A DNA stretch of 64,000 nt from Thiobacillus sp. 0-1251 (GTDB taxonomy: Bacteria; Pseudomonadota; Gammaproteobacteria; Burkholderiales; Thiobacillaceae), in assembly GCA_001899305.1 (NCBI GenBank), contig MKWL01000018.1:62001-126000 (forward strand), written 5' to 3'. Below, in pieces: positions 5,790 through 57,988 of this stretch. The notes under the pieces were generated by a model. It had not been told where the DNA came from. It made no database searches and saw only the letters and a program-made list of their open reading frames with translations. The translations under genes and the position numbers were made by a program. How positions within the stretch are numbered: position 1 is the first letter of the stretch; each line of letters opens with the position of its first letter.

Positions 5790-5804
5790 GCAATTGCTAT
5801 GCCA
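5790..5804 (-). promoter_or_regulatory. Predicted sigma-54 promoter for the mptG operon
   Basis: The minus strand reads TGGCATAGCAATTGC, matching TGGCAYR-N4-TTGC with correct GG-N10-GC spacing. It lies 40 bp upstream of the mptG ATG and about 70 bp from the dyad at 5860-5874. This is inferred from sequence only. Confidence 0.68.
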
Positions 5805-5859
5805 ATGGGAAAATACATAAATAATCAATCGTCTAGCTTTACATGCTCAGAGCGACGAT

Positions 5860-5874
5860 GTGACAGACTGTCAC
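5860..5874. promoter_or_regulatory. Perfect dyad, candidate activator site (UAS) between divergent mptG and fhcB operons
   Basis: GTGACAGACTGTCAC has perfect 6-bp arms around a 3-bp centre. The same ACA-N3-TGT core occurs upstream of mtoX, of fdsG and of the sigma-54 activator. It sits between two predicted sigma-54 promoters that point away from each other. Confidence 0.65.
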
Positions 5875-5977
5875 GCCGCTCGCATCGGCCGCGTGACATC
5901 TTTTATGGAGGAAGGCGGCATGCGTCGACGGGAAACTGCCTGCCTGGCCAGACACATAGGCGCAGCCGCGACATGCA

Positions 5978-5992
5978 TGGCATGGATCCTGC
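5978..5992 (+). promoter_or_regulatory. Possible sigma-54 promoter for the fhcBADC operon
   Basis: TGGCATGGATCCTGC has GG-N10-GC spacing, with CTGC in place of TTGC. It lies 118 bp from the dyad at 5860-5874, a usual activator distance. It implies transcription starting near 6004, downstream of the ATG at 5996. It is weaker than the mtoX and fds sites. Confidence 0.45.
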
Positions 5993-6034
5993 TAAATGCT
6001 TTGGCACTTCAGTCTTTTTGAGTCTTCTATCTCA

Positions 6035-7282
6035 GTGTCCAGTCCTTCGGTTTGTTGTCCTTTTTGCGGTTTGCTGTGTGACGATCTGGAAGTCGTGCGC
6101 GAGGGGGACGGCGTGCGGCTCGAACGCCCGGCGTGTCCCCGCGCATCGCGGTTGTTTTCCATCCCGGACCCTGGCCAGGCCATGATTGCCGGCTTGCCCA
6201 TCAGCCTGGATGAAGCTTGCCGGTCGGCGGCGATCATCCTGTCAGGTTCGCACCGCCCGCTGATCGGCGGACTGGGATGCGATGTCACGGGCCATCGCGC
6301 TGCCCTGTCGCTGGCGGAAAAGCTGGGGGGGGTGGTCGATCACATGCATGGCCGCGCACAGTTCCGCAATGTGCAGGCTTTCCAGGATGGCGGCTGGGTG
6401 ACGACCACCCTGTCCGAGGTGCGCAACCGTGCCGACCTGATCGTGCTGGCGGGCACGGATGCCTCGCGCTATCCGCGTTTCTTCGAACGCTGTCTTGCCC
6501 CGGCGTCCCAGTTTGGCGAGTTGACGCGCAAGGTCGTGGTTCTGGGCGATCCCGTGCCGTCCATTCCCGTCATGGACGGCGTATCCGTTTCGTCCATCCC
6601 GATCGATGCGGGCCGCCTGGGCGAATTATTTGCCGTCATGCGCGCCAGCTTGGCAGGGATGCCTACGCGTGCCGCAGACGTGGCGGGCGTGTCGATCGGG
6701 CAGATCGAGGCCCTGCTGGCCGATATGCGTGCGGCCCGCTATGGTGTGCTGGTCTGGAACGCGGCGGAACTGGATTTTCCGCAGGCCGATCTGACCATCC
6801 AGTCGGCCGTGAATCTGGTCAAGGATCTCAACCAGGCGACGCGATGGTCCGGGTTGCCTCTGGGGGGCGACGATGGTGGCACCTCGGCCGCGCAAACCTG
6901 CACCTGGCAGACCGGCTACCCCTTGCGCACCGCATACGAAATCGCCGGTCCGCGCTATGAACCGCTGCTGTTCGACAGCGACCGTCTGCTGAAAACAGGG
7001 GAGGTGGATGCGCTGGTCTGGATATCGGCGTTCGATCCCGAACGCACGCCCCCTGCCGTGGATTGTCCGACCGTGGTGCTGGGTCGGGCCGACATGCGGT
7101 TTGCCCGGGCGCCGGATGTGTTCATTCCGGTGGCCGTTCCGGGTGTACAGCATGCGGGTTTCCTGCATCGGATGGATGCGGTGGTGGCCTTGCCCTTGTC
7201 GGCGCCCGCATCGTCCAGCCTGCCGAGCGTGGCCCAGGTCCTTGCCATCATCCAGGGAGAGACGAATCATGCTGCGGCTTAA
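6035..7282 (+). CDS. fhcB: Formyltransferase/hydrolase complex subunit B (formylmethanofuran dehydrogenase B homologue)
   Basis: The protein has about 415 residues from the GTG at 6035; an ATG at 5996 would add 13 non-conserved residues and lies upstream of the predicted transcription start. The N-terminal CCPFCGLLCDDL is the FwdB/FhcB signature, and later parts (GLGCDVTGHRAAL, DVFIPVAVPGVQHAG) resemble a molybdopterin-oxidoreductase scaffold. In bacteria, Fhc converts formyl-H4MPT to formate via formyl-methanofuran, and subunit B is thought not to act as a redox enzyme. It is the first gene of fhcBADC and overlaps fhcA by 14 bp. Confidence 0.9.
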   Translation: MSSPSVCCPFCGLLCDDLEVVREGDGVRLERPACPRASRLFSIPDPGQAMIAGLPISLDEACRSAAIILSGSHRPLIGGLGCDVTGHRAALSLAEKLGGVVDHMHGRAQFRNVQAFQDGGWVTTTLSEVRNRADLIVLAGTDASRYPRFFERCLAPASQFGELTRKVVVLGDPVPSIPVMDGVSVSSIPIDAGRLGELFAVMRASLAGMPTRAADVAGVSIGQIEALLADMRAARYGVLVWNAAELDFPQADLTIQSAVNLVKDLNQATRWSGLPLGGDDGGTSAAQTCTWQTGYPLRTAYEIAGPRYEPLLFDSDRLLKTGEVDALVWISAFDPERTPPAVDCPTVVLGRADMRFARAPDVFIPVAVPGVQHAGFLHRMDAVVALPLSAPASSSLPSVAQVLAIIQGETNHAAA

Positions 7283-8933
7283 GAATGGCCGGATCTACGA
7301 CCCTGCGCACGGCGTCGATGGCGAGGTCCGCGATCTCTATATCGAGGATGGCCGCATCGTGGCCGCACCAGGGCCGGATGCGAGAATCGATCGCGACATC
7401 GATCTCGCCGGCCGCGTGGTGATGGGCGGCGCCATCGACCTGCATACGCACATCGGCGGCGGCAAACTGAACATTGCGCGGGCGCTGTTGCCGGAGGACC
7501 ACCGCCAGGATCCGCTCCCGACCAGCGGCGGCATGCATGCCGGCTGTGGTCACGCCGCGCCCTCGACCTGGACCACCGGTTACCGCTATGCCGAGATGGG
7601 CTATACCGCCTGCTTCGAGCCGGCCATGCAGCCCACCAACGCGCGTCATACCCATCTTGAGATGGGCGATACGCCCATGGTGGACAAGGGCGCCTACGCC
7701 ATGCTCGGCAGTGACGACTTTTTCCTGCGCATGCTGGCCAGCGGGGCGGACCAGCGCCTGATCAACGACTACGTGGGCTGGACGCTGGATGCGAGCCAGG
7801 CCATGGCCATCAAGGTGGTGAATCCGGGCGGCATCTCTGCCTTCAAGTTCAATGCCCGCAGCCTGGATCTGGACGAGGCCCATCCCTATTACCGCGTGAC
7901 ACCCCGACAGGTGGTGCAGGCACTCGCGCGGGCTGTGCACGACCTGGGTGTGGCGCACCCGCTGCACGTGCACGCGAGCAACCTGGGCGTTCCCGGCAAT
8001 GCCGACACCACCCTGGCAACCATGGCCGCGGCGGAGGGATTGCCCATCCATCTGACCCACATCCAGTTCCACAGTTATGGCACCGAAGGCGAGCGCAAGT
8101 TTTCCTCCGAAGCCGAGCGTATCGCCGATGCCATCAACCGCATGCGCAATGTGTCGGCCGATGTCGGACAAGTCCTGTTCGGCCAGACGGTGACCGTCTC
8201 GGGCGACAGCATGAAGCAGTACGGCAACCATCGCCATGCCAGCCCGGACAAATGGGTGGTCATGGACATCGAATGCGACGCGGGCTGCGGCGTGGTTCCG
8301 TTCAAGTACCGCGACAAGAATTTCGTCAACGCCCTGCAATGGGCGATCGGTCTGGAACTGTTCCTGCGTGTCAACGATCCCTGGCGCATCTTCCTGACCA
8401 CCGACCATCCCAACGGTGCGCCCTTCACCAGCTATCCGCACCTGATTCGCCTGCTGATGGACAAGCGCTTCCGCGATTCGAAGCTGGACGAGATCAACGC
8501 CGAGGCCGCCGCGCACAGCCAGCTGCGCAGTCTGGATCGGGAATACAGCCTCTACGAGATCGCCATCATGACGCGCGCTGCACCGGCCCGCTCCCTCGGC
8601 CTGACCGATCGCGGCCATCTGGGTGAAGGGGCGGCGGCCGATATCGTGGTCTATCGCGACGATGCCGACCGCGAGGCCATGTTTGCGCAGCCCGAGTATG
8701 TGTTCAAGGACGGCCAGCTCATCGTGCGCGACGGCAAGGTGGTGAACGTGGTCAATGGTGCACTGCACGTGGTGAAGCCCGAGTACGACAAGGGCATCGA
8801 GAAACCCCTGAAGGATTATTTCGACCGTTACATGACAGTCAGGATGGAAAACGTCCGCATAAGCGACGACGAGATCTGCACGTGCGGCGCCAGCAAACTG
8901 ATTCCCCATGTGTGCAAGGGGAGGGCGGCGTGA
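7269..8933 (+). CDS. fhcA: Formyltransferase/hydrolase complex subunit A (amidohydrolase)
   Basis: This 554-residue member of the amidohydrolase superfamily starts MLRLKNGRIYDP. AIDLHTHIGGGK carries the HxH metal ligands, HPLHVHASNLG and LTHIQFHSYG carry further histidines, and FLTTDHPNGAPF supplies the catalytic Asp region. It hydrolyses formyl-methanofuran, releasing formate from the H4MPT pathway. The start lies inside the fhcB 3' end and its stop overlaps the fhcD start (GTGA), with AAGGGGAGGG as a strong ribosome site for fhcD. Confidence 0.95.
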   Translation: MLRLKNGRIYDPAHGVDGEVRDLYIEDGRIVAAPGPDARIDRDIDLAGRVVMGGAIDLHTHIGGGKLNIARALLPEDHRQDPLPTSGGMHAGCGHAAPSTWTTGYRYAEMGYTACFEPAMQPTNARHTHLEMGDTPMVDKGAYAMLGSDDFFLRMLASGADQRLINDYVGWTLDASQAMAIKVVNPGGISAFKFNARSLDLDEAHPYYRVTPRQVVQALARAVHDLGVAHPLHVHASNLGVPGNADTTLATMAAAEGLPIHLTHIQFHSYGTEGERKFSSEAERIADAINRMRNVSADVGQVLFGQTVTVSGDSMKQYGNHRHASPDKWVVMDIECDAGCGVVPFKYRDKNFVNALQWAIGLELFLRVNDPWRIFLTTDHPNGAPFTSYPHLIRLLMDKRFRDSKLDEINAEAAAHSQLRSLDREYSLYEIAIMTRAAPARSLGLTDRGHLGEGAAADIVVYRDDADREAMFAQPEYVFKDGQLIVRDGKVVNVVNGALHVVKPEYDKGIEKPLKDYFDRYMTVRMENVRISDDEICTCGASKLIPHVCKGRAA

Positions 8934-9826
8934 TCATCAATGGCGTATACATCGACGACACCTATGCGGAAGCCTTCGGTATGAAGGCAACCCGCATTGT
9001 CATCACCGCGGACAACCTGACCTGGGCAAAGCATGCGGCCAACGCCGCCTTCGGCTTTGCCACCTCGGTCATCGCCTGCGGCTGCGAGGCGGGCATCGAA
9101 CGCGAGTTGTCTCCGGAGGAAACACCCGACGGGCGCCCTGGCGTGGCCGGCCTGCTGTTTGCGGTCTCCACCAAGGAGTTGGCCAAACAGCTGGAGCGGC
9201 GTGTCGGCCAGTGCGTGCTGACCTGTCCCACCACGGCCGTGTTCGCCGGCTGCGAAGGCGAAGAGTCGCTGCCGCTGGGCAAGAACCTGCGCTATTTCGG
9301 CGACGGCTGGCAGATGTCCAAACTCATTGCCGGACGGCGCTATTGGCGCATCCCGGTGATGGACGGCGAGTTTTTGGCCGAGGAAACGACCGGCCTGATG
9401 CGTTCGGTCGGCGGCGGCAATTTCCTGGTCCTGGCGCGTTCGCGCAGCCGGGCGCTGGCCGCCTGCGAAGCGGCAGTGGATGCCATCCTGCGCGTTCCTG
9501 GCGCCATCGCGCCCTTCCCGGGTGGGGTGGTCCGCTCGGGCTCCAAGGTGGGCTCCAAATACAAGGCGCTGCCTGCCTCCACCAACGATGCCTTCTGTCC
9601 GACCCTGCGCGGCGTGGCGAAAACCGAGCTCAGTCCGGGCGTGGACGCCGTGCTCGAGATCGTGATCGATGCCGTCACCGACGCCGACATGCGCGTGGCG
9701 ATGAAGGCCGGCATGGATGCGGTCTGCGGGATCGGTGCGGCAGGTGGCATCGTACGTTTGTCGGCGGGCAACTACGGCGGAAAGCTGGGCCAGTTCCACT
9801 ATCGGTTGCGGGAGATTCTGGCATGA
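8930..9826 (+). CDS. fhcD: Formylmethanofuran--H4MPT N-formyltransferase
   Basis: The protein has 298 residues, the normal Ftr length. The GTG at 8930 is chosen over an ATG at 8882 because it follows AAGGGGAGGG, overlaps the fhcA stop and gives the family N-terminus (IINGVYIDDTYAEAFGMK). Other conserved parts are CGCEAGIERELSPEETPDGR and GSKYKALPASTNDAFCPTL. It moves the formyl group from formyl-H4MPT to methanofuran, and is the third gene of the complex. Confidence 0.95.
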   Translation: MIINGVYIDDTYAEAFGMKATRIVITADNLTWAKHAANAAFGFATSVIACGCEAGIERELSPEETPDGRPGVAGLLFAVSTKELAKQLERRVGQCVLTCPTTAVFAGCEGEESLPLGKNLRYFGDGWQMSKLIAGRRYWRIPVMDGEFLAEETTGLMRSVGGGNFLVLARSRSRALAACEAAVDAILRVPGAIAPFPGGVVRSGSKVGSKYKALPASTNDAFCPTLRGVAKTELSPGVDAVLEIVIDAVTDADMRVAMKAGMDAVCGIGAAGGIVRLSAGNYGGKLGQFHYRLREILA

Positions 9827-10623
9827 CGACACTGAGCTTGCGCGCCGTGCCGAACGGACGTGTCGACATGACCGGCGTACTGCCGGAAACGCTCGCCGGG
9901 CGGCGTGCGGATGACATCGCGAAGCAGATCATCCATCTGGCAGGCAACCCCATGATGCTGGGCGACCTGTTCGAGGTGGACGTGGACGAAACCGACATGC
10001 TGGTGATCCGTACGGACAGCGATCGACTCGATTGCCTGGGCAAGGGCATGAGCACGGGCAGCGTGCGGATCGAAGGACCGGCAGGGCATTACGCCGCGCA
10101 GGGGATGCGCGGCGGCGAACTCGATATCCACGGCGATGCCGGAGATGGCGCCGCCAACGGCATGATGGGCGGCCTGTTGCGCATTCGGGGCAATGCCGGC
10201 GACTGGCTCGGTGCCGCATTGATTGGCGACCGTACCGGCATGGCGGGCGGCGTGGTGGCGGTCGAGGGCAATGCTGGCGATCGTCTCGGCGATCGCATGC
10301 GGCGCGGGTTGATTCTCGTACGCGGCCAGGCGGGCGACGCCTGCGGCGCGCGGCTTCTCGCCGGCACGCTCGTGGTGGCGGGTGGCTGCGGTACCCTGCC
10401 GGGATCCGGCCTGCGACGCGGAAGCCTGATCCTGGGCCGCAGTCCCGAAGCCATCCCACTGAGCTTCAATGATTCGGGTCGGGTCGACCTGAGTTACCTG
10501 GGATTGCTGCATCGGCATGCGGAAAGCTTCCTGCCCGGGCTGCTGCCGGCTTCCACGCAAGCACACCGCTACATGGGCGATCTGGCCTTCGGCGGCAAAG
10601 GGGAGATCCTGGTGCTGGCATGA
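9823..10623 (+). CDS. fhcC: Formyltransferase/hydrolase complex subunit C
   Basis: This 266-residue FwdC/FhcC homologue is built of repeated glycine-rich beta-helix turns such as GPAGHYAAQGMRGGELDIHG, GDAGDGAANGMMGG and GNAGDWLGAALIGD. The fold matches the C-terminal GltB/FwdC beta-helix. It is a structural subunit of Fhc. The ATG overlaps the fhcD stop (ATGA) and its own stop overlaps the next start (ATGA). The order B-A-D-C is the common bacterial order. Confidence 0.94.
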   Translation: MTTLSLRAVPNGRVDMTGVLPETLAGRRADDIAKQIIHLAGNPMMLGDLFEVDVDETDMLVIRTDSDRLDCLGKGMSTGSVRIEGPAGHYAAQGMRGGELDIHGDAGDGAANGMMGGLLRIRGNAGDWLGAALIGDRTGMAGGVVAVEGNAGDRLGDRMRRGLILVRGQAGDACGARLLAGTLVVAGGCGTLPGSGLRRGSLILGRSPEAIPLSFNDSGRVDLSYLGLLHRHAESFLPGLLPASTQAHRYMGDLAFGGKGEILVLA

Positions 10624-11159: not shown

Positions 11160-11986
11160 CGGCATTCACTTGTGGACGTTTCCACTTTACGCTGGCGCGT
11201 CCCCTGGTCATGGGCATCGTCAATGCGACGCCCGATTCGTTTTCAGACGGCGGGCTTTATGCCGCCCGCGAGCGTGCTATCGAGCATGGGTTGCGACTGC
11301 GCGAAGAGGGGGCCGACATCCTCGATATCGGCGGCGAATCCACCCGGCCCGGCGCCACCCCGGTGGAAGCCGAGGAGGAATTGAGGCGGGTGCTGCCGGT
11401 GCTCGAAGGTCTGCGCGACTGCGGCGCCGCACTGTCGATCGACACCATGAAGACGCCGGTGATGGCGGCCGCCCTGCACGCAGGGGCCGACATGATCAAC
11501 GACGTCAATGCCTTGCGCGCGCCCGGTGCGCTTGAGGTCGTGGCGGCTTCGCACTGCGGTGTCTGCCTGATGCACATGCAGGGCACGCCGCAGACCATGC
11601 AACAGCAGCCGCGATACGGCGACGTCGTCGCGGAGGTGTTGGAATATCTGCACCTGCGTACGGAGGCGGCGGCGCGGGCGGGCATCGCCCGGGAACGCCT
11701 GCTGTGGGACCCCGGCTTCGGCTTCGGCAAGACGCCCGCGCACAACATCGCCCTGTTTCAGGCACTGGACCGTTTTACATTGGCGTCGCCGACCCTGGTG
11801 GGCATCTCGCGCAAATCATTGTTCGGCACGCTCACCGGCCGGCCGGCGCCGGAACGGCTGGTCGCCAGTATCACGGCGGCCACGCTGGCCGCACTGAAAG
11901 GCGCGGCGATCGTGCGCGTTCACGATGTCGCGGCCACGGTCGATGCCCTGAAGGTCCTGCATGCATTGGGTATGGAATCCCGGTAA
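11156..11986 (+). CDS. folP: Dihydropteroate synthase
   Basis: The protein has 276 residues from the ATG that overlaps the preceding stop. It carries both DHPS signatures, MGIVNATPDSFSDGG and DIGGESTRPGA, plus LSIDTMK, MINDVNALR and the late DPGFGFGK. It condenses p-aminobenzoate with dihydropterin pyrophosphate in folate synthesis. It ends the fhcBADC-phosphatase operon, so a folate gene is expressed with H4MPT genes. A separate, more divergent DHPS-like protein is at 59037-60440. Confidence 0.93.
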   Translation: MTAFTCGRFHFTLARPLVMGIVNATPDSFSDGGLYAARERAIEHGLRLREEGADILDIGGESTRPGATPVEAEEELRRVLPVLEGLRDCGAALSIDTMKTPVMAAALHAGADMINDVNALRAPGALEVVAASHCGVCLMHMQGTPQTMQQQPRYGDVVAEVLEYLHLRTEAAARAGIARERLLWDPGFGFGKTPAHNIALFQALDRFTLASPTLVGISRKSLFGTLTGRPAPERLVASITAATLAALKGAAIVRVHDVAATVDALKVLHALGMESR

Positions 11987-12014
11987 TCCTTTTCAACTTC
12001 AGGAGTTTTCTCTC

Positions 12015-12461
12015 ATGCGCTCACGTCGCCATCCCCATGCTTTTCTATTGCTGGCCGCCCTCGCTTCCCCCGTCTGGTCCTGGGCCGGCGATGTGAAGAT
12101 CGACCATGCCTGGGTGCGTGCCACGGCACCTGGCCAGAAGGTAGCGGGTGCGTTCATGGAAATCACAGCCGACCGGGACATGGAACTCGTCGCGGGAACG
12201 ACCCCCCGCGCAGATCATGTCGAACTGCATTTCATGCGCATGGACGATGGCGTGATGGAAATGCGCGAGCTTGAATCGATCAAGCTGCCGAAAGGCGAAA
12301 CGGTCAGCCTGAAACCGGGCGGATTGCATGCCATGCTCATCGGCCTCACATCGCAGGTCGTGGCGGGCGAGAAAGTGCCCATGACCCTGACGTTCAGGGA
12401 CAGCCAGGGCAAACAGGAAAACGTCGGCATCACGCTGGATACCGCCTCGCCCCGCCATTGA
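12015..12461 (+). CDS. Periplasmic copper chaperone PCu(A)C
   Basis: This 148-residue protein has an N-terminal signal peptide ending near WSWA. AGGAG lies 10 bp upstream of the ATG. The copper motif is VELHFMRMDDGVMEM followed about 35 residues later by GGLHAMLIGL, the His/Met pattern of PCu(A)C (DUF461). PCu(A)C carries Cu(I) to respiratory or other copper proteins in the periplasm, often together with SCO. It opens a block with a TonB receptor and fits the copper demand of the methanethiol oxidase and cytochrome oxidase. Confidence 0.9.
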   Translation: MRSRRHPHAFLLLAALASPVWSWAGDVKIDHAWVRATAPGQKVAGAFMEITADRDMELVAGTTPRADHVELHFMRMDDGVMEMRELESIKLPKGETVSLKPGGLHAMLIGLTSQVVAGEKVPMTLTFRDSQGKQENVGITLDTASPRH

Positions 12462-12559
12462 CCGCGGCGACGCTGCGGCAATTTGCCACATTGTCGTGAC
12501 ACGTCGCGCACCCTACACTCGTCCCGAATAGAAACCAATAAATTTCCTGAATGTTTTCA

Positions 12560-12623
12560 GGCCGGTACGGATTGCCGGGCGAATACGCGGTAGCGGTTGC
12601 CGCATATTCGCCCGCATCCGGCC
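12560..12623 (+). other. Long inverted repeat in the leader of the BNR-repeat gene
   Basis: A 64-nt segment can fold back on itself: GGCCGG pairs with CCGGCC, GGAT with ATCC, and GGGCGAATA with TATTCGCCC, with short bulges and a small apical loop. It ends just before the purine-rich ribosome site (GGGGGA at 12625-12630) of the gene starting at 12642. It may be a regulatory leader or a palindromic repeat element; no known riboswitch was recognised. Confidence 0.5.
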
Positions 12624-12641
12624 AGGGGGACGAGAGACATC

Positions 12642-13865: not shown

Positions 13866-13867
13866 TC

Positions 13868-14362
13868 ATGCTGCGTCGTCTGTGTCTTTTTCTCGTGTGT
13901 CTGGCCGCATGGCCTGCATCGGCAACCGAGCCTGCCCGCTTCGATTCGGGCAGCCTGGCAAAGATCGAAGCGCGGTATGCGGGCAAGCCGTTCATTCTGA
14001 GCCTGTGGTCGGTCAACTGGTGCGGACACTGCATCGACGAACTGACCATGCTGGGAAAACTGTCGAAAAACGAAAAGACCCTGCCTCTGGTATTGGTCGC
14101 GGTCGACAGCCCGGAGGATAGCGACGCGATCCGGAAAACCCTGCGCAAGCTCGGGTTGAGCCATGCAGAGTCCTGGGTTTTCGACGATCCCATCCCCGAA
14201 CGCCTGCGCGCCGCCATCGACCCTACTTGGCAGGGGGAACTGCCGCGCTCGTATCTGTACGACAAGGCGCATCGGCGCCAGGCAGCAGTGGGCACGCTCG
14301 ATGAGGCCAGGCTGAAGTCCTGGCTGGAACAACAGGGACAGCGATCCGGCACCGCCAAATAG
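13868..14362 (+). CDS. Exported TlpA-like thioredoxin-fold protein
   Basis: This 164-residue protein has a signal peptide (MLRRLCLFLVCLAAWPASA). A thioredoxin-type active site, NWCGHC, lies in WSVNWCGHCIDEL. The ATG is only a few bases after the BNR gene, and a GTG at 13862 is an alternative start overlapping the previous stop. A periplasmic thiol reductant is expected, perhaps keeping the Cys cluster of its neighbour or a copper site reduced. The next gene, the TonB receptor, follows after 20 bp. Confidence 0.8.
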   Translation: MLRRLCLFLVCLAAWPASATEPARFDSGSLAKIEARYAGKPFILSLWSVNWCGHCIDELTMLGKLSKNEKTLPLVLVAVDSPEDSDAIRKTLRKLGLSHAESWVFDDPIPERLRAAIDPTWQGELPRSYLYDKAHRRQAAVGTLDEARLKSWLEQQGQRSGTAK

Positions 14363-14382
14363 AAAACCAACAAGGGAGAACC

Positions 14383-16647: not shown

Positions 16648-16649
16648 GC

Positions 16650-17315: not shown

Positions 17316-17316
17316 T

Positions 17317-18045: not shown

Positions 18046-18048
18046 GCC

Positions 18049-21644: not shown

Positions 21645-21648
21645 CGAC

Positions 21649-39616: not shown

Positions 39617-39620
39617 CAAA

Positions 39621-47557: not shown

Positions 47558-47587
47558 TGTGACAATTTGTGTCGACTCCAGACCACT
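47558..47587. promoter_or_regulatory. Activator-site block upstream of fdsG, shared with mtoX
   Basis: TGTGACAATTTGT (47558-47570), then GTCGACTCCAGACCACT. Thirteen bases are identical to the mtoX block at 41270 and CTCCAGAYCACT follows at the same distance. It lies about 160 bp from the sigma-54 promoter. Confidence 0.7.
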
Positions 47588-47717
47588 TTTCTGTTTGATC
47601 AGACATGACATTCTGTCCCGGCGCTGGGTATTGCTGGGCTGGGTTCGCGTGCTTTGCGATTGATTAGGCGGTTGTTTATGAATGATTTTGCAATCGCCCC
47701 AGTTTGAAAAAATCGAT

Positions 47718-47733
47718 TGGCACGCGAATTGCA
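47718..47733 (+). promoter_or_regulatory. Predicted sigma-54 promoter of the fds operon
   Basis: TGGCACGCGAATTGCA is a full consensus match (TGGCACG-N4-TTGCA), 53 bp before the fdsG ATG. Confidence 0.85.
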
Positions 47734-47785
47734 GAGAGCTTTCAAACACCTGCTTCAATGGTTTTCTTGATTGCTCAGAGGATTT

Positions 47786-49770: not shown

Positions 49771-52616
49771 GCCTGCATTGCCATCACGACCGGGGTACCC
49801 CGGCACGCACATCCACCCAACACGTCACGCTGTCCATCGACGGCGTTCCCGTTACCGTTCCGGCCGGAACCTCGGTGATGCATGCCGCAGCCGAAGCGGG
49901 AATCGATATTCCCAAGCTGTGTGCGACCGAACAGCTGGAATCATTCGGCTCCTGCCGACTCTGTGTGGTCCAGGTGAAGAACCGGCGTGGTTACCCCGCC
50001 TCATGCACCACGCTGGTGGAGGAGGGCATGGAGGTCACCACCGAGAACGATGCCCTGTTCCGTCTGCGTCGCGGCGTCATGGAGTTGTATATCTCCGATC
50101 ACCCGCTCGACTGCCTGACCTGTTCCGCCAACGGCAACTGTGAACTGCAGGACCAGGCCGGTCGCGTCGGCCTTCGCGAGGTCCGTTACGCCGACGGTCA
50201 AAACCATCTGCAGGAAGCGACGGATACCTCGAATCCCTATTTCGCCTACGATCCGTCGAAGTGCATCGTCTGCTCGCGCTGCGTGCGGGCCTGTTCCGAC
50301 ATCCAGGGCACCTACGCCTTGACCACCACCGAGCGCGGATTCGACAGTCGCATCGCGGCAGCGGGCGGTGAAGATTTCATGTCGTCCGAATGCGTGTCCT
50401 GCGGCGCCTGTGTCGCGGCCTGCCCCACAGCGGCGCTGATGGAAAAATCCGTCATCGAGATGGGGCAGCCTCAGCGCAGCGTCACAACCACCTGCGCCTA
50501 TTGCGGCGTGGGGTGCTCGCTCAATGCCGAGTTGCAAGGCGAGAAGGTGATCCGCATGGTGCCCGACCTCAATGGTGGCGCCAACCATGGCCATGCCTGC
50601 GTCAAGGGCCGCTTCGCGTGGGGCTATGCCACGCACGCCGACCGTATTACCACGCCGATGATCCGCAGTTCGATCCGTGATCCCTGGCGCGAAGTGAGTT
50701 GGGAGGAGGCCATCGCCCACACGGCGAGCGAGCTGCGGCGCCTGCAGGAAAAATACGGGGCTGAATCGATCGGCTCGATCACCTCCTCGCGCTGCTCCAA
50801 CGAGGAGACCTATCTGGTCCAGAAGCTGACCCGTGCGGCCTTTGGCGTCAACAATGTCGACACCTGCGCTCGTGTGTGCCATTCGCCAACCGGGTATGGT
50901 CTCAAGCAGACACTGGGCGAATCGGCGGGGACCCAGGACTTCGATTCCGTGATGCAGGCGGACGTGATCATGGTGATCGGTGCCAACCCGACCGACGGCC
51001 ACCCGGTATTCGGTTCGCGCATGAAGCAGCGCCTGCGTCAGGGAGCCAAGCTGATCGTCGCCGACCCGCGCGCCATCGACCTGGTCGACACGCCGCACGT
51101 GCGCGCCACCCATCACCTGAAGCTGCTGCCCGGCACCAATGTCGCGCTGATCAATGCCCTGGCGCATGTCGTCGTGACCGAGGGGCTGGTCGACGAGGAT
51201 TTCATCGTGGATCGCTGCGAGGCGGAGGCCTTCAACAAATGGCGCACCTTCATTGCCGATCCGCGTCATTCGCCGGAAGCGACCGCATCCGTCACCGGCG
51301 TGCCGGCGGACGAGGTACGCGCGGCTGCGCGACTGTATGCGACGGGCGGCAATGCGGCCATCTACTACGGTTTGGGCGTGACCGAGCATAGCCAGGGATC
51401 CACCATGGTCATGGGGATCGCCAACCTGGCCATGGCCACCGGCAACATCGGGCGCCCCGGCGTCGGCGTCAATCCGCTACGCGGCCAGAACAACGTGCAG
51501 GGCTCGTGCGACATGGGATCCTTCCCGCATGAACTGCCCGGGTATCGCCACGTTTCGGACGTCGCTACCCGCGAGCTGTTCGAGTCGGTCTGGGGCGTTC
51601 CGCTTTCGGACGAACCCGGACTGCGTATCCCGAACATGTTCGACGCGGCCATCGCCGGCAGCTTCAAGGGGCTCTACGTACAGGGCGAGGACATCGCCCA
51701 GTCCGACCCGAACACCGGACATGTCACCCATGCACTGGAGTCCCTGGAGTGTCTGGTGGTGCAGGATCTTTTCCTCAACGAAACTGCGAAATTCGCGCAC
51801 GTCTTTCTGCCGGGCGCCAGCTTCCTTGAAAAGGATGGCACCTTCACCAACGCAGAACGGCGTATTTCGCGCATCCGCAAGGTGATGCGTCCGCTCGCCG
51901 TCTATGCGGACTGGGAAGTGACCCAGATGCTGTCGAACGCACTCGGTTACCCGATGCATTACAGCCACCCGTCCGAGATCATGGACGAAATCGCGCGCCT
52001 GACCCCCACCTTCCACGACGTGTCCTATGCCAAGCTGGACCGGCTGGGAAGTGTCCAGTGGCCCTGCAACGCGGCGCATCCGGACGGCACGCCGACCATG
52101 CATGTGACGGAATTCGTGCGGGGCAAGGGGCGTTTCATGCTGACCGAGTACGTTGCCACGGACGAGCGCGTCAACCGTCGCTTCCCGTTGCTGCTCACCA
52201 CCGGCCGCATCCTGTCGCAATACAACGTTGGCGCTCAGACCCGGCGTACCGCGAATAACGCGTGGCATCCGGAAGACATCCTTGAGCTGCACCCGGTGGA
52301 TGCCGAGGACCGCGGCATCCGCGACGGCGACTGGGTCGGCGTGCAGAGCCGCGCCGGCGAAACCGTGCTGCGCGCGCGAATCAGCGAGCGGATGCAGCCC
52401 GGCGTCGTCTACACCACGTTCCACTGGCCCGGATCCGGCGCCAACGTGGTCACCACGGAGAACTCCGACTGGGCCACCAACTGTCCGGAGTACAAGGTGA
52501 CCGCCGTGCAGCTGTCGCGCGTGGAACAGCCTTCGACCTGGCAGAAACAGTTTGCGCAATTCAGCGAGGAACAGATGAAGCTGCTGAAGCAGGAGCCAGC
52601 CGGTGCGTCTGTGTGA
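49767..52616 (+). CDS. fdsA: NAD-dependent formate dehydrogenase alpha (molybdenum) subunit
   Basis: The 949-residue catalytic subunit starts with a 2Fe-2S domain (CATEQLESFGSCRLC) and a His/Cys cluster (DHPLDCLTCSANGNCELQ). Two 4Fe-4S clusters follow (CIVCSRCVRAC and CVSCGACVAAC), then the molybdopterin domain with CAYCGVGCSLN. The Mo ligand is the Cys in TCARVCHSPTGYG. It oxidises formate to CO2 in the cytoplasm. The start overlaps fdsB and its end overlaps fdhD by 14 bp. Confidence 0.95.
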   Translation: MSLHCHHDRGTPARTSTQHVTLSIDGVPVTVPAGTSVMHAAAEAGIDIPKLCATEQLESFGSCRLCVVQVKNRRGYPASCTTLVEEGMEVTTENDALFRLRRGVMELYISDHPLDCLTCSANGNCELQDQAGRVGLREVRYADGQNHLQEATDTSNPYFAYDPSKCIVCSRCVRACSDIQGTYALTTTERGFDSRIAAAGGEDFMSSECVSCGACVAACPTAALMEKSVIEMGQPQRSVTTTCAYCGVGCSLNAELQGEKVIRMVPDLNGGANHGHACVKGRFAWGYATHADRITTPMIRSSIRDPWREVSWEEAIAHTASELRRLQEKYGAESIGSITSSRCSNEETYLVQKLTRAAFGVNNVDTCARVCHSPTGYGLKQTLGESAGTQDFDSVMQADVIMVIGANPTDGHPVFGSRMKQRLRQGAKLIVADPRAIDLVDTPHVRATHHLKLLPGTNVALINALAHVVVTEGLVDEDFIVDRCEAEAFNKWRTFIADPRHSPEATASVTGVPADEVRAAARLYATGGNAAIYYGLGVTEHSQGSTMVMGIANLAMATGNIGRPGVGVNPLRGQNNVQGSCDMGSFPHELPGYRHVSDVATRELFESVWGVPLSDEPGLRIPNMFDAAIAGSFKGLYVQGEDIAQSDPNTGHVTHALESLECLVVQDLFLNETAKFAHVFLPGASFLEKDGTFTNAERRISRIRKVMRPLAVYADWEVTQMLSNALGYPMHYSHPSEIMDEIARLTPTFHDVSYAKLDRLGSVQWPCNAAHPDGTPTMHVTEFVRGKGRFMLTEYVATDERVNRRFPLLLTTGRILSQYNVGAQTRRTANNAWHPEDILELHPVDAEDRGIRDGDWVGVQSRAGETVLRARISERMQPGVVYTTFHWPGSGANVVTTENSDWATNCPEYKVTAVQLSRVEQPSTWQKQFAQFSEEQMKLLKQEPAGASV

Positions 52617-53424
52617 TCTGCCCGACCCCTCCATGACGTTGCCGTCCCCCCTGGTGGAAACCGCCGCGCGCGGACCGGGTGGCATACGAATGGACTCGGT
52701 GCCGGAAGAAGTACCGGTCGCCTTGTCCTACAACGGCATCTCGCATGTCGTGATGCTGGCCAGTCCGACCGATCTTGAGGACTTTGCCCTCGGGTTCAGC
52801 CTGAGCGAAGGCATCCTGGCGGACCCCAGCGAGCTGTATGACCTGGATCTGGAGATCGAAACCCGCGGCGTAGTCGTGCAGATGCGTATTGCCGAAGCGC
52901 GGTTCGTCGAACTCAAGAACCGTCGCCGCGCGCTGGCCGGTCGTACGGGTTGCGGCTTGTGCGGCGTGGAAAGCCTGGATCAGGTGGCCCGCCCCCTGGC
53001 GCCATTGCCGGCCGGCCCCGCCATCGCAGCCGCGGCACTGCATCGGGCGCTGGCCCAGTTGCAGCAGAAACAGCCATTACATGCCAGCACCGGCGGTGTG
53101 CACGCGGCCGCCTGGGCCGACGCTGCAGGCGATCTGCTGATGGTGCGCGAGGATGTGGGTCGCCACAATGCGCTGGACAAGCTGATCGGCGCACTGGCGA
53201 AAGACCGGCGCGATCCTGCCGCCGGCTTCGCACTGGTCACCAGCCGTGCCAGCTTCGAGATGGTGCAGAAGGCGGCCAGCGTGGGCATCCCCATTCTGGC
53301 GGCGGTCTCCGCGCCGACAGGCTACGCGATCCGGCTGGCCCAGGAAGTGGGGCTGGCCCTGGCAGGCTTCGTGCGCCAGGGCCGTTACACCGTTTACTCA
53401 ACCCCCGAACGAATCGAAACCTGA
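52603..53424 (+). CDS. fdhD: Formate dehydrogenase accessory sulfurtransferase FdhD/FdsC
   Basis: The 273-residue protein starts with GTG inside the fdsA 3' end. FdhD motifs are EEVPVALSYNGISHVVM, DLEDFALGFSLSEGI and the cysteines in GRTGCGLCGVESL. VREDVGRHNALDKLIG follows. It supplies sulfur to, or inserts, the Mo cofactor of FdsA; in fds operons the gene is called fdsC. Confidence 0.93.
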   Translation: MRLCDLPDPSMTLPSPLVETAARGPGGIRMDSVPEEVPVALSYNGISHVVMLASPTDLEDFALGFSLSEGILADPSELYDLDLEIETRGVVVQMRIAEARFVELKNRRRALAGRTGCGLCGVESLDQVARPLAPLPAGPAIAAAALHRALAQLQQKQPLHASTGGVHAAAWADAAGDLLMVREDVGRHNALDKLIGALAKDRRDPAAGFALVTSRASFEMVQKAASVGIPILAAVSAPTGYAIRLAQEVGLALAGFVRQGRYTVYSTPERIET

Positions 53425-53431
53425 GCAGCAC

Positions 53432-53668
53432 ATGAATATTGAACACCTGATCCACATGGCCAATCAGATCGGCGCCTATTTCGAGGCCGAGCCCGATCGG
53501 GCGGTCGCAAGCGCGGGCGTTGCCGATCATCTGGCCCGTTTCTGGGAGAAGCGCATGCGCCAGAGTCTTTACGCCTACCTGGATTCGGCGCAGGACAGCA
53601 CCTTGGCGCCATTGGTCAGCGATGCCCTGACCCGGCATCGCGAGCGGATCCTGGGAAAACCCCAATGA
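53432..53668 (+). CDS. fdsD: Formate dehydrogenase delta subunit
   Basis: The 78-residue FdsD has HLIHMANQIGAYFEAEPDR and LARFWEKRMRQSLYAYLD. It is small and lacks metal motifs, and is needed for full Fds activity in other bacteria. It follows fdhD by 7 bp and its stop overlaps folK (ATGA). Confidence 0.9.
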   Translation: MNIEHLIHMANQIGAYFEAEPDRAVASAGVADHLARFWEKRMRQSLYAYLDSAQDSTLAPLVSDALTRHRERILGKPQ

Positions 53669-54222
53669 GTCGGGCCTTCGTCGCCCTGGGCGGGAATGTC
53701 GGTGGACCTGCAGCCCGCCTGCTTGCCGTCATGGGCGAATTCGATTCTCTGCCGCATACCCGCCTGTTGCGTGCGTCGTCGCTCTATCGGACTGCGCCTG
53801 TAGGCTATGCCGACCAGCCCGACTTCATCAATGCGGTCGTCCTGCTGGAAACCGGACTGTCGCCGGATGCGCTGATGGGCGAATTGCTGGCGATGGAGAC
53901 GCGTCATGGCCGAGTGCGACACGTGCGCAACGGGCCGCGCACGCTGGATCTCGATTTGCTCCTATACGACGGCCTGGTCCTGGACGGCGATCCGGCCCTG
54001 ATTGTGCCGCATCCTCGTCTGCACCTACGGTCTTTTGTCTTGACACCGCTGGTGGAAATCGAGCCCGAGTGCGTGTTACCCGGCCATGGCCAGGCGGCTT
54101 CACTCCTCGAAAGAATGACGGACCGGGATGAGGTCCGCCGCATCGATTTCCCCGGTCTGGATGACGGTCTGCAGGTTCTGCGCAGACTCGGCCAGGGATT
54201 GATGCCCCACGCCTACGCCTGA
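53665..54222 (+). CDS. folK: 2-amino-4-hydroxy-6-hydroxymethyldihydropteridine pyrophosphokinase
   Basis: The 185-residue HPPK has ALGGNVGGPAARL at the N-terminus and the signature GPRTLDLDLLLYDG, then LIVPHPRLHLRSFVLTPL. It makes the dihydropterin pyrophosphate used by FolP. The ATG overlaps the fdsD stop, so folate synthesis is tied to formate oxidation in one operon. It is convergent with folE2. Confidence 0.94.
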   Translation: MSRAFVALGGNVGGPAARLLAVMGEFDSLPHTRLLRASSLYRTAPVGYADQPDFINAVVLLETGLSPDALMGELLAMETRHGRVRHVRNGPRTLDLDLLLYDGLVLDGDPALIVPHPRLHLRSFVLTPLVEIEPECVLPGHGQAASLLERMTDRDEVRRIDFPGLDDGLQVLRRLGQGLMPHAYA

Positions 54223-54266: not shown

Positions 54267-55139
54267 TTATGCGGAAAGCGGTGCTGTGCGCTCGATCAGC
54301 GCATAGGCGGAATGGTTGTGGATCGATTCGAAATTCTCCGATTCGACCACGTAGGATTCGATACGCGCATCCTCGTTTAGCGCGGCGGCCACATCGCGCA
54401 CCAGATCCTCCACGAATTTTGGGTTCTCGTAGGCCTTCTCGGTGACGTATTTCTCATCCGGCCGCTTCAAGAGACCATAGAGCTGGCTGGAAGCATTCAC
54501 CTCGGCGATGTGGATCAGGTCTTCGATCCAGATGAAATCATTCGTCTTGACGGTGATCGTGATGTGCGAGCGCTGGTTGTGGGCGCCGTATTTCGAAATG
54601 CCCTTGGAACAGGGACACAGGCTGGTGCACGGCACCAGGATCCTGACGGTTTGGTGATATGCGCCGTCCCGGATTTCTCCGATGAACGTGACTTCGTAAT
54701 CGAGCAGGCTCTTCACGCCCGAGACCGGTGCCTGCTTGTTGATGAAGTAGGGGAAGCTCATCTCGATGTACCCGGAGCGGGCTTCCAGACGCTCGACCAT
54801 CTGGCGAAGCATGCTTTCGAACGATTCCACCGTGATCTCGCGTTCCTGACTGTTCAGGATCTCGATGAAGCGGGACATATGCGTGCCCTTGAAATGGTGG
54901 GGCAGATGCACGTACATGCCGAAGGTGGCGATGGTGTGCTGGGTACCGCTGCTTTTATCCCGCACCTTGACCGGATGGCGAATGGCCTTGATGCCGACTT
55001 TGTCGATGGCGATCCGGCGGACATCCGGCGTGTTCTGGACATCGGGGATGGCCGTATCGACCGACCGGGCAGACTTTCGGTCCGGCAGGGTTGAAGGGCA
55101 GGGCAGATCGGTTTCGCAAACGCTGTCGCAGGAGGTCAT
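54267..55139 (-). CDS. folE2: GTP cyclohydrolase, type IB
   Basis: The 290-residue FolE2 has [20 protein letters not shown], the metal-binding Cys in [20 protein letters not shown], and the C-terminal [16 protein letters not shown]. It opens GTP to dihydroneopterin triphosphate, the precursor for both folate and H4MPT pterins. It lies 22 bp downstream of the sco gene, so the two form a leftward operon under a predicted sigma-54 promoter at 55751-55765. Confidence 0.94.
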
Positions 55140-55161
55140 GGGCTTCCTTGGTCTGGTTCGA

Positions 55162-55710
55162 TCAAGGCAGCAAGGCCGTGACGAGTTTCAATACATCCTG
55201 GGTGGGTGTGCCGTAGGGAATGATTCTCACGAGCTTGCCCTGGGTGTCGATGAGGAAGACGTTCACGGTGTGATCGACGGTATAGCTGGAGCCTGTCGGC
55301 ACATAGCGGAAGTGTGCGCCATACTGGCCTGCCACCTTGTGCAACTCCTGCTCGCTGCCGGTCAGCGCCAGAATGCGCTTGTCAAAAAAGCCCACATAGG
55401 GCTCCAGGACATCGGCGGTGTCCCGTTTCGGGTCGACACTTATAAAAATCGGTTGAACCAGGGGACGCTTGTCGGCAGGCAGCATGGCCAGCAATTGCTT
55501 GAACTGCAGCAGTTCTGTCGGGCACATGTCCGGGCAATAAGTGAAGCCAAAATAAAGCAGCACGGCCTTGCCCTTGAACGAGGAAAGCGAGACCTCCTGG
55601 TTTTGCGGAGTACGCAGCGTGAAATCCCCGCCCAAGGTATGGGACCCACCCCATGCGATGGACGTGCAGAACAGGATGAGGGACACGATGCAATAGCGCA
55701 CAGATTTCAT
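55162..55710 (-). CDS. SCO1/SenC-family copper chaperone
   Basis: The 182-residue exported protein starts with a signal peptide ([13 protein letters not shown]). The canonical copper motif is [11 protein letters not shown], and [10 protein letters not shown] gives the metal His. Unlike the SCO in the mtoX operon, the cysteines are correctly spaced (CPDMC). It probably assembles a copper site of cytochrome oxidase or assists MtoX. It is the first gene of the sco-folE2 operon. Confidence 0.92.
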
Positions 55711-55750
55711 ATTTCTTCATTGCCAATCAATACCAGTGGCAAATGCTGCT

Positions 55751-55765
55751 GCATGAACCGTGCCA
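55751..55765 (-). promoter_or_regulatory. Predicted sigma-54 promoter of sco-folE2
   Basis: The minus strand reads TGGCACGGTTCATGC: a full -24 element and ATGC for TTGC. It lies 41 bp upstream of the sco ATG and 103 bp from the dyad at 55854-55868. Confidence 0.65.
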
Positions 55766-55853
55766 TGTGGTCAGATGTCTCCTGGATCAGGTGACAGATG
55801 ATCAGTACACTCGGAATGACATGTGATAAAGATCTTGTGAACGTTCCAGTTTC

Positions 55854-55868
55854 GGTACAACCTGTACC
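55854..55868. promoter_or_regulatory. Dyad between divergent sco-folE2 and activator genes
   Basis: GGTACAACCTGTACC has perfect 6-bp arms and the ACA-N3-TGT core of the sites at 5860, 41270 and 47558. It is placed between two sigma-54-like promoters, as at the mptG/fhcB junction. Confidence 0.6.
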
Positions 55869-55975
55869 ATGTATTTCACGCGATCTATATTTCGATGGGC
55901 GACGTTTTCATTTTGTCCCTGTTTTTTTGGGGATGGACAGCGAAATACGGTGCACGTTGGGCACCTTTATAGTGT

Positions 55976-55990
55976 TGGTTCAGATATTGC
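55976..55990 (+). promoter_or_regulatory. Sigma-54-like promoter of the activator operon
   Basis: TGGTTCAGATATTGC keeps GG-N10-GC and TTGC but not the CACG part. It is 27 bp before the activator ATG and 122 bp from the dyad, and suggests autoregulation. Confidence 0.45.
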
Positions 55991-56017
55991 TTCCATAGTC
56001 TCGGTAAGGATTTAGCG

Positions 56018-57988
56018 ATGGAAAGGCACGAAATCTTGGAACACGCCCGTATTGTGAATGCTGTCGTCGAGTCGCGCGGCGCCATGGATACGACGGAAGT
56101 CGGGCCGGCGATTGCCCAGTCATGGAATCGATGCGTGCGAGACTTTGGCCTGGATCCGGTTCGCGATGAGCCGGTGGTCATTCTTGACAGCCGTGAACTC
56201 AAGGATAGACAGGAGCCCCTGGAGTCCTTGCGTGCGATCGCGCAAGGCGAGATGGCGACGCTATACCAGCAGTTGTCGGGATCCGGTTTTTCGGTGTTGC
56301 TGACCGACCGGGAAGGCGTGGTGCTGGATTATCTGGGCGATCCTTCGTTTTCCGAGGCCGCGAGGCAGTGCGGGATGATCGAAGGCGCGCTGTGGAGCGA
56401 GCAGTACCAGGGCACCAACGGCATGGGCACCTGTGCCATCGAGAAACGTCCCCTGCTGGTCCATCACCATGAGCATTTCCTGTCGCGCAACGTCGGGCTG
56501 ACCTGTTCGGCCGCTCCGATCTTCGACCATGAAGGTCGGCTGATGGCAGTCCTGGATGCCTCCAGTTTTTCCCACCTGGCACAACAGCACACCCTGGTCC
56601 TGGTGAACATGTCGGCGCAGATGATCGAGAACCGCGCCTTCCTGTGCAATTTCCGCGACCATTACGCATTGCGCTTCCACAGCCGGCCCGAATTCATCGG
56701 GACACTTTGGGAAGGCGCGCTGGCCTTGAATGAGGAAGGCCATATCCTGGCCGCCAACCGGAGCGCCTTGTTCCAGCTTGGCTACAAGAAGCATGCTGAC
56801 TTGGCGGGACTGCAACTGCGTGATCTCTTCAATACGGGCATGGATGCCCTGCTCGGACGGAACAATCAGGGATGGCTCAACCCGGTCGCTCTCTATGAAG
56901 CCAAGCGGGGCAATCGTTTCTTCGGCCTTGTCCAGCCGCCCGAGGCCCGCGGTTCCGTTCTGTCAGGCCGGGCGTCGCGACAGAGTGTTCCCGAAAGCCC
57001 GCCTGTGGGCGAAGACAAGATTATCCGTCTGAGTGAACTCCAGTTCGGCGACCAGACCATGGAACATAACGTTCACTGCGCCAAACGCGTGCTGGGCCGG
57101 GATATCCCGATCCTGCTGCTGGGCGAGACCGGGACAGGCAAGGAAGTGTTTGCCCAGGGGGTCCACCAGGAACAGGCTGGCGGCAAGCGTCCCTTCGTGG
57201 CAGTGAACTGCGCATCCATTCCGGAAACCCTGATCGAGAGCGAACTTTTCGGTTACAAGTCGGGGGCATTCACCGGCGCCAATCGTGAGGGTCGTCGCGG
57301 GAAAATTCTCCAGGCGAACGGCGGTACGCTGTTTCTGGATGAAATCGGCGACATGCCCGTGATGCTACAGGCCCGTTTACTGCGGGTACTGGAAGAACGC
57401 GAAGTGATTCCGCTGGGTGGCGAAACGCCCGTCAAAGTCGACATCAAGCTGATCAGTGCCACCCACCGCGACCTCAAGGAACTGGTGGCGGAAGGGCGCT
57501 TTCGGGAAGATCTGTACTACCGCCTGCAGGGCATTACGCTGAACCTCCCGCCTTTGCGCGAACGAGGAGACAAGCGCGAGCTCATCAACCATATCCTGGG
57601 TCTGGAATGCGGGGAAAGGGAACGGGTAGGATTGAGCAAAGGTGCCTTACGGCAGCTTGAATCGTATGCCTGGCCTGGCAACATCCGCCAGTTGCGCAAT
57701 GTCCTGAGAACAGCTCTGGCTCTGTGCGATGGCCCTGAAATCACGATTTACGATCTGCCTGAAGAAATCTGCGCCCAAGCACCCCGGTCGGAAACCGATG
57801 ACAGCGCTGGCAGCAGCAAGGAGACCCCGTTGTCGGCGCTGGAGACGGCGGAACGGGAAACGATTTTGCTGAACCTGGAGAAGAGCCGCTGGAACGTCAC
57901 GCTCGCGGCTCGGAATCTGAAAATCAGCCGCAACACGCTGTATCGCAAGATGAACAATCTGAACATCCGCATCAACAAGGAGGAATGA
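56018..57988 (+). CDS. Sigma-54-dependent transcriptional activator (AcoR-like, GAF-PAS-AAA-Fis)
   Basis: The 656-residue protein has an N-terminal GAF domain (about 70-215; GMIEGALWSEQYQGTNGMGT is AcoR-like), a PAS-like region (about 225-320) and an AAA+ domain. That domain has Walker A GETGTGKE (369-376), GAFTGA (416-421) and GGTLFLDEIGD. The C-terminal Fis-type HTH reads SRWNVTLAARNLKISRNTLYRKM. GAFTGA shows it contacts sigma-54. It heads the operon with five H4MPT/methanofuran genes. The GAF domain probably senses a small ligand; formaldehyde- or methylsulfur-related signals are guesses. Confidence 0.93.
   Translation: MERHEILEHARIVNAVVESRGAMDTTEVGPAIAQSWNRCVRDFGLDPVRDEPVVILDSRELKDRQEPLESLRAIAQGEMATLYQQLSGSGFSVLLTDREGVVLDYLGDPSFSEAARQCGMIEGALWSEQYQGTNGMGTCAIEKRPLLVHHHEHFLSRNVGLTCSAAPIFDHEGRLMAVLDASSFSHLAQQHTLVLVNMSAQMIENRAFLCNFRDHYALRFHSRPEFIGTLWEGALALNEEGHILAANRSALFQLGYKKHADLAGLQLRDLFNTGMDALLGRNNQGWLNPVALYEAKRGNRFFGLVQPPEARGSVLSGRASRQSVPESPPVGEDKIIRLSELQFGDQTMEHNVHCAKRVLGRDIPILLLGETGTGKEVFAQGVHQEQAGGKRPFVAVNCASIPETLIESELFGYKSGAFTGANREGRRGKILQANGGTLFLDEIGDMPVMLQARLLRVLEEREVIPLGGETPVKVDIKLISATHRDLKELVAEGRFREDLYYRLQGITLNLPPLRERGDKRELINHILGLECGERERVGLSKGALRQLESYAWPGNIRQLRNVLRTALALCDGPEITIYDLPEEICAQAPRSETDDSAGSSKETPLSALETAERETILLNLEKSRWNVTLAARNLKISRNTLYRKMNNLNIRINKEE

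Follow-up and report, generated by a model that had tools for sequence, protein, structure and literature searches.

A candidate sigma-54 activator and the gene runs around it

The window analysed here is the whole 64,000-nucleotide stretch of Thiobacillus sp. 0-1251 DNA (genome G000, contig C18, positions 62001-126000; the assembly comprises 3.66 Mb in 24 contigs). On the plus strand at 56018-57988 it encodes a sigma-54 activator of 656 amino acids, characterized by Pfam searches, translation, alignment and a tree. The window also contains six putative -24/-12 promoters and four dyads, and together these elements are predicted to form a regulon in which sigma-54 governs the dissimilation of methanethiol and formaldehyde, a reading that is well supported by comparative evidence. 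The relatives of the window are Thiobacillus; the nearest cultured one found was T. thioparus DSM 505 (L087), with an activator of 96% identity, and two contigs of metagenome-assembled genomes (L078 and L079) encode an activator that is 98% identical.

The activator is composed of a GAF domain (residues 71-205), an AAA+ domain (345-508) and a Fis-type helix-turn-helix (HTH; 608-646) according to Pfam. AcoR has the same domain order. Its match to Sigma54_activat (PF00158, E 1.1e-65) and the presence of GETGTGKE, GTLFLDEIGDM and GAFTGA identify it as a sigma-54 activator, and the HTH_8 match (E 1.5e-10) as one with a Fis-type C-terminal HTH. Translation and alignment place the GAFTGA motif at residue 416, intact as the preliminary description had reported. 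The genome has rpoN, and by sequence the predicted target promoters are of the -24/-12 type with upstream dyads, as expected for an enhancer-binding activator. No named NCBIfam equivalog was reached, all 25 models listed (of 28) remaining under their cut-offs; the scores against PrdR and DhaR were 325.9 (cut-off 795) and 294.8 (cut-off 551), respectively. The viral contigs searched contained no relative of the activator.

The activator gene is the first of a tetrahydromethanopterin (H4MPT)/methanofuran gene run, the rest of which occupies 57990-61719 on the same strand in a gene order shared by relatives. Pfam assigned PTPS (57990-58487), Flavoprotein (58504-59061), DUF6513 (59037-60440), DUF447 (60392-61009) and an mfnB-like 4HFCP synthase (60943-61719). 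The adjacent minus-strand run (54267-55710) consists of sco (SCO1/SenC, 55162-55710) and folE2 (GTP cyclohydrolase, 54267-55139), recognized by Pfam and NCBIfam. A formate dehydrogenase run (plus strand, 47771-54222) comprises fdsG, fdsB, fdsA, fdhD, fdsD and folK; fdsB and fdsA were named from their position in the run without a family search, the other four by Pfam.

Family searches defined the mtoX run (minus strand, 35723-41069), in which mtoX (39621-41069) is followed by genes for a SCO1/SenC protein (38855-39619), a MauG-like protein (37653-38858), a Pyr_redox_2 flavoprotein (36280-37602) and a second formaldehyde-activating enzyme, fae2 (35723-36262). The MtoX protein scored 744.9 bits against equivalog NF052453 (cut-off 650) and is thus a member of that family. 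The mptG run (minus strand, 783-5828; family searches) holds mptG, ATP-grasp, mch and RimK-like genes and extends past the left edge of the window (L223), where it includes fae1 and more genes of H4MPT/methanofuran-like type, among them MfnE- and MfnF-like matches below cut-off. Opposite lies the fhc run (plus strand, 5996-10623; NCBIfam and open reading frames), with fhcB (283.7 bits, under the equivalog cut-off of 327.8), fhcA and subunit C in the 3' part of the frame 8908-10623; the frame 8882-9826 is about as long as fhcD and is a candidate for it by length only. Judging by strand and spacing, each run would be a single transcript.

Six promoters and four dyads

The promoter sequences, each read directly and conserved in relatives, are TGGCATAGCAATTGCT for the mptG run (5789-5804, minus strand), TGGCATGGATCCTGCT for fhc (5978-5993, plus; conserved in the alignment), TGGCACGGGGGTTGCT for mtoX (41112-41127, minus), TGGCACGCGAATTGCA for fds (47718-47733, plus), TGGCACGGTTCATGCA for sco-folE2 (55750-55765, minus) and TGGTTCAGATATTGCT for the activator run (55976-55991, plus). 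Those of mptG, mtoX and fds fit the strict sigma-54 pattern. Because the -24/-12 elements overlap the open frames of mptG and fhcB, translation of both genes must begin further downstream than the first start codon in the frame; an ATG near 5750 (mptG) and a GTG near 6035 (fhcB) would fit.

The four dyads, likewise read directly and conserved, resemble GTGACA-N3-TGTCAC; they are GTGACAGACTGTCAC (5860-5874), common to mptG and fhc; GTGACAATTTGTCTC upstream of mtoX (41271-41285); GTGACAATTTGTGTC upstream of fds (47559-47573); and GGTACAACCTGTACC (55854-55868), common to the activator and sco-folE2. All six promoters and four dyads were thus found where the preliminary description had put them, with two dyads serving divergent operons. 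Its dyad-promoter spacing of 70-160 bp was close to the 63-152 bp measured from dyad centre to -24 (mptG 63, fhcB 111, mtoX 151, fds 152, sco-folE2 96 and activator 115 bp). The dyad core given there, ACA-N3-TGT, proved too narrow, as most sites fit GNGACA-N3-TGTCNC; in the T. thioparus group, the dyad shared by sco and the activator reads GGTACA-N3-TGTACC. All activator-bearing relatives that were examined have the fhcB and activator promoters, which had been described as weaker. A second, weaker fds dyad, ATGACATTCTGTCCC (47605-47619), emerged from the matrix scan and the alignment; a dyad is aligned at this position in all six rows, the G005 copy having a one-base deletion.

Pairing of dyads and promoters exceeds chance

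Sigma-54-like sequences are common, with 28 scoring at least 20.5 in the window on a hand-made weighting (no trained model), and the pairs might be coincidental matches in promoter DNA that serve no common function. We built a dyad matrix from 14 sites of other genomes only. This independent matrix found all four window dyads, with scores of 22.9, 22.2, 17.9 and 11.5, and yielded nine dyad/promoter pairs in the window as against a mean of 0.04 and a maximum of 1 in 200 dinucleotide shuffles. Six of the nine are the pairs described above, one involves the second fds dyad (47612) and two a weaker candidate at 27894. The latter (GTTACAAAGTGTCAT, paired with TGGTTCGGAACTTGCT at 28000 upstream of a gene for a PAS histidine kinase) was rejected and is not counted, because in G005 the flanking coding DNA aligns and the intergenic stretch does not.

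Across the genome, TGGCAYR-N4-TTGC had 28 matches compared with 5 for its backwards control; a dyad scoring at least 5 lay at 40-260 bp from three of the 28 strict sites, all three in the window. The dyad pattern GKKACA-N3-TGTNNC (GKKACANNNTGTNNC) was not enriched (18 strand matches at 14 places, four of them in the window, versus 19 for the backwards control). The dyad alone is therefore not rare, and pairing and conservation carry the case. The pattern GNGACA-N3-TGTSNC (GNGACANNNTGTSNC) gave 22 strand matches versus 10 in the control. These fall at 12 places, of which three contain GTGACA, namely the dyads of mtoX, fds and mptG/fhc. A genome-wide search was among the checks that the preliminary description had proposed. 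A looser pattern added a fourth GTGACA place, GTGACATTCTGTTGC on contig C6 (L052), for which a scan at 40-260 bp returned no sigma-54 pair. Among the loci scanned beyond the window there was one pair (L048; dyad 17.1, promoter 20.8), which was set aside as it lies inside the coding sequence of an FtsH-like protease gene (translation as read).

In G029, GTGACA stands on a side of four of nine places, all four before mtoX/fds, fhc/mptG or sco/activator. Over several genomes, counting only sites on the plus strand of each locus, 6 of 31 GNGACA-N3-TGTSNC sites had a sigma-54 site scoring at least 20 at 40-260 bp: three in the window, two counterparts of these (L182 and L210) and one in L194 (promoter 20.8).

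The matrix also transferred to distant relatives. Applied to 41 loci with activator homologues of 39-60% identity (701 kb), the Thiobacillus matrix gave 12 pairs, whereas 60 column-permuted matrices gave a mean of 0.85 (maximum 5) and the reversed matrix none. Five of the 12 lie within 50 bp of the projected start of a named target: the activator (L098), mptG (L108 and L122) and fhcB (L108 and L128). A further site is 22 bp before an fhcB match (L115). The others are before exaC (L090 and L091), between a PQQ (pyrroloquinoline quinone) dehydrogenase and the activator homologue (two pairs, L119) or without an assigned target (L117 and L127). Together with the excess over shuffles and the conservation of the paired columns in diverged intergenic DNA, this makes a chance origin highly improbable, common as either element is by itself.

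The pairs accompany the activator in relatives

Locus counts here and below include near-identical strains (the window, L078, L079/G005 and L087), and an activator of at least 60% identity is termed close. A close activator occurs in 3 of 35 same-genus genomes (G005, G013 and G029). The same three have Fds, mtoX (also found in G015) and fhcB (also found in G001).

The preliminary description had named, as support, conservation of the pairs only together with the activator. Genomes with a close activator have pairs before mtoX in 5 of 5 cases (G000, G005, G013, G029 and L084), before fdsG in 7 of 7 (activator-bearing genomes or records) and before fhcB/mptG in 4 of 4 (G000, G005, G013 and G029). 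Without a close activator no pair was detected before mtoX in G015, G051 and G057 (0/3), before fdsG in nine loci of eight other genomes (0/9, one with just 149 bp available) or before fhcB/mptG in G041, G051, G058 and G036 (0/4). Several of these pair-negative genomes carry distant activator homologues (38-47% identity). The exception is G001, which has the fhcB and mptG sites. Its assembly is 87% complete and DUF6513, the activator's operon neighbour, was not found either, so the activator locus may have escaped assembly.

In alignments, promoter and dyad columns are conserved amid diverged intergenic DNA. The dyad and promoter of the activator run are present in all ten close homologues (L078-L087), which also keep GAT(A/G)TTGCT at -33 to -43 before the activator. 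In G029 and L084, mtoX and fds diverge from an intergenic region that contains two dyads; G029 mtoX is located elsewhere on the contig of L081/L082, and a stop in its frame probably lies before the true start.

That binding of the dyads by the activator is a prediction, and that G001 keeps sites without a detected close activator, leaves room for another regulator of the dyads, a repressor or a different enhancer-binding protein, with the neighbouring activator acting elsewhere. We consider this improbable, as a dyad precedes the activator's own promoter in all ten close homologues and the window's genome has a single activator match at E<=1e-80. The behaviour of the homologues lacking GAFTGA, described below, speaks against it as well.

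Activator homologues lie beside formaldehyde genes

To survey the family we fetched flanks of up to 10 kb for 51 loci (L078-L128) with homologues of 39-98% identity. The H4MPT queries came from the window's genome and the adhIII, PQQ, exaC and dgcA queries from loci within the set, which means that linkage was not counted blind. Of the 51 loci, 31 had one or more H4MPT-set genes (L089, L092, L094 and L096 by one match each, that of L096 weak), a further 13 had adhIII and another four a PQQ alcohol dehydrogenase. The adhIII query itself scored above the cut-off for S-(hydroxymethyl)glutathione dehydrogenase. The remaining loci, L098, L121 (exaC only) and L125, had none of these genes, and all three are at contig ends. 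Among the 41 loci with homologues of 39-60% identity, 38 were linked to formaldehyde genes (H4MPT, glutathione-formaldehyde or PQQ-alcohol dehydrogenase). The 18 comparison loci (L068-L077 and L129-L136) gave no H4MPT or adhIII match, two PQQ matches (39-41%) and seven exaC matches.

In the tree, a branch supported at 100/98 separates 50 rows from the exaC-type rows and a single long outgroup row. Support for the sister group itself is weak (88/53), and the program warned of long branches. Residue counts leave out L098, L121 and L123 (too short), and L116 was left out of alignment A1 (stop in the matched range). Cys39 and Cys139 occur in all 49 clade rows counted and in L067; among eight sister rows Cys39 occurs in two and Cys139 in none. 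L067 (4438-6501; G013, contig C24) is an activator-clade paralogue of 59-61% identity, with Gly where others have Cys163. The sister activators of L069, L070 and L073-L076 have exaC-like genes for acetaldehyde dehydrogenase nearby, 73-75% identical to that of Thiorhodococcus; exaC-linked sister activators are perhaps an acetaldehyde-responsive group.

These neighbourhoods bear on the possibility that the regulon is real and that the signal sensed by its activator is not formaldehyde but methanethiol, a different reduced sulfur compound or copper. The targets do include mtoX and two SCO1-family genes, and mtoX transcription in Ruegeria pomeroyi is induced by methanethiol (PMC5739008, excerpted account). 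Distant homologues, however, lie near H4MPT, adhIII, PQQ dehydrogenase or dgcA-like genes, and an mtoX match was found in 0 of the 41 distant loci (fetched stretches only, whole genomes not searched). We thus regard such a ligand as unlikely, and formaldehyde, on gene neighbourhood and residue conservation, as the likeliest signal.

A branch without GAFTGA

GAFTGA is present in 34 of the 49 rows. The 15 without it (L093, L095, L097, L099, L100, L103-L105, L107, L109-L111, L116, L120 and L125) comprise 12 of the 13 adhIII-linked rows, the PQQ-linked L097 and L103, and L125, and so lie mostly beside glutathione-dependent formaldehyde dehydrogenase. Lacking the motif, these homologues should be sigma-54 independent. 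No Thiobacillus dyad and sigma-54 pair was found at the 15 loci. Their HTH, in the 14 that are readable, contains HGNIS and GRNT; in 33 of the 34 others it contains W-N with SRNT or TRNT, one being unreadable. A palindrome near TGTTCC-N5-GGAACA is aligned in nine intergenic regions of this branch, exact in three and carrying one to three changes in each of the other six.

Other genes in the window

Downstream of fhc, a DHPS-like gene is followed, at 11961-18468, by genes for a PCu(A)C copper chaperone, a BNR-repeat protein, a TonB receptor, TonB, ExbB and ExbD, a possible copper-uptake set. The stretch 20430-29989 encodes an acyl-CoA-dehydrogenase-like protein with weak SfnB/DszC similarity, two pairs of PAS histidine kinase and LuxR response regulator, a fatty-acid-desaturase-family protein and a BenC/MmoC-like reductase. 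As a guess, it may be a candidate oxygenase system, possibly for dimethylsulfide.

Discussion

The GAF-AAA-Fis activator encoded at 56018-57988 very probably acts through the four dyads on the six sigma-54 promoters, which would unite them in one C1 (one-carbon) dissimilation regulon with formaldehyde as the probable signal. The activator would bind the dyads as upstream activator sites, contact sigma-54 RNA polymerase at the -24/-12 promoters and open these by ATP hydrolysis. One signal would then switch on mtoX along with its helpers (the SCO1 and MauG-like proteins) and a fae of its own, the formylmethanofuran dehydrogenase/hydrolase (fhc), mch, fae and H4MPT/methanofuran synthesis, and formate dehydrogenase (fds) and FolE2/Sco. 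With the activator's own run among the targets, positive feedback would follow. Formaldehyde or a C1 adduct may be sensed in the N-terminal region, perhaps via the clade-specific Cys39 and Cys139.

Several observations weigh against this reading. Binding and activation are predicted from sequence only, and we infer the operon extents and the identity of the signal as well. The sco/activator dyad deviates (GGTACA) and has the lowest matrix score, 11.5, and in L084 the activator dyad is at -226, compared with about -140 otherwise. Besides those before their targets, G013 and G005 have three and two GTGACA-type places, respectively, elsewhere, not all of them examined. The persistence of fhcB/mptG sites in G001 without a detected close activator counts here too. 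The pair-negative genomes are mostly distant, only G015 (mtoX) being of the same genus, so the contrast may partly reflect distance. Among distant loci with at least two H4MPT genes, 8 of 17 have a pair and 9 have none; the homologues may have targets beyond the sequence that was fetched. No C1 gene flanks L067, the second member of the clade in G013. Formaldehyde as the ligand is suggested by gene neighbourhood and the conserved cysteines; the signal could instead be methanethiol, methanol or a different aldehyde, and most sister loci adjoin exaC, an acetaldehyde dehydrogenase gene.

The joint methanethiol, H4MPT, cofactor and formate regulon proposed in the preliminary description is nevertheless favoured by the statistics and the conservation, and the proposal should be widened, in that the activator gene leads an H4MPT/methanofuran run and the family appears tied to formaldehyde metabolism generally. 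Within it, mtoX and fds look like additions in Thiobacillus to a formaldehyde/H4MPT regulon. We tentatively suggest, with rather less confidence than for the regulon itself, that the activator founds a formaldehyde-sensing GAF-AAA-Fis family of Beta- and Gammaproteobacteria, sensing by the invariant Cys39 and Cys139. Ancestrally it may have controlled H4MPT-linked formaldehyde oxidation via sigma-54, gaining mtoX and NAD-formate dehydrogenase in Thiobacillus, while one branch, mostly beside glutathione-dependent formaldehyde dehydrogenase, would have lost GAFTGA and so sigma-54 dependence, changing HTH and operator together.

Known systems share parts of this arrangement. AcoR-type activators, as far as the excerpt of PMC6615313 goes, likewise contain GAFTGA and act on -24/-12 promoters for which upstream activating motifs were predicted; their regulons concern acetoin, alcohol, butyrate and agmatine genes, unlike the C1 targets here. 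SoxR of Bacillus thuringiensis is a sigma-54 activator of a pathway producing formaldehyde and peroxide and uses one inverted repeat for two transcription units, although it serves the sarcosine oxidase locus of Bacillus and is likened by description only (PMC4941409, in part). The regulator upstream of mtoX in the methanethiol-induced operon of Ruegeria pomeroyi belongs to the IclR family, not to sigma-54 activators, and the excerpted account contains no H4MPT/fds link (PMC5739008). Formaldehyde controls the formaldehyde detoxification operon of E. coli through FrmR, as proposed here, but FrmR is an RcnR/CsoR-family repressor with an unrelated mechanism (PMC6540204, in part). The preliminary description knew of no regulator described as joining methanethiol oxidase to H4MPT and Fds genes, and none of the papers listed in our literature search (subscription journals mostly outside it) describes this regulon.

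The oxidation of methanethiol is an important step in the sulfur cycle, and the products of MtoX are formaldehyde, sulfide and peroxide (PMC5739008, in part). These have to be removed as they arise. If the regulon is as predicted, one sigma-54 switch would cover the whole route between methanethiol and carbon dioxide and would account for the way in which a sulfur oxidiser such as Thiobacillus achieves this. A later paper (PMC10936201) is said to have found that some such methanethiol oxidases release sulfane sulfur instead. The H4MPT pathway in several betaproteobacterial groups, for which no regulator appeared among the papers listed in the literature search, would likewise gain a predicted one, and the activator would be a candidate formaldehyde sensor that may be usable as a biosensor.

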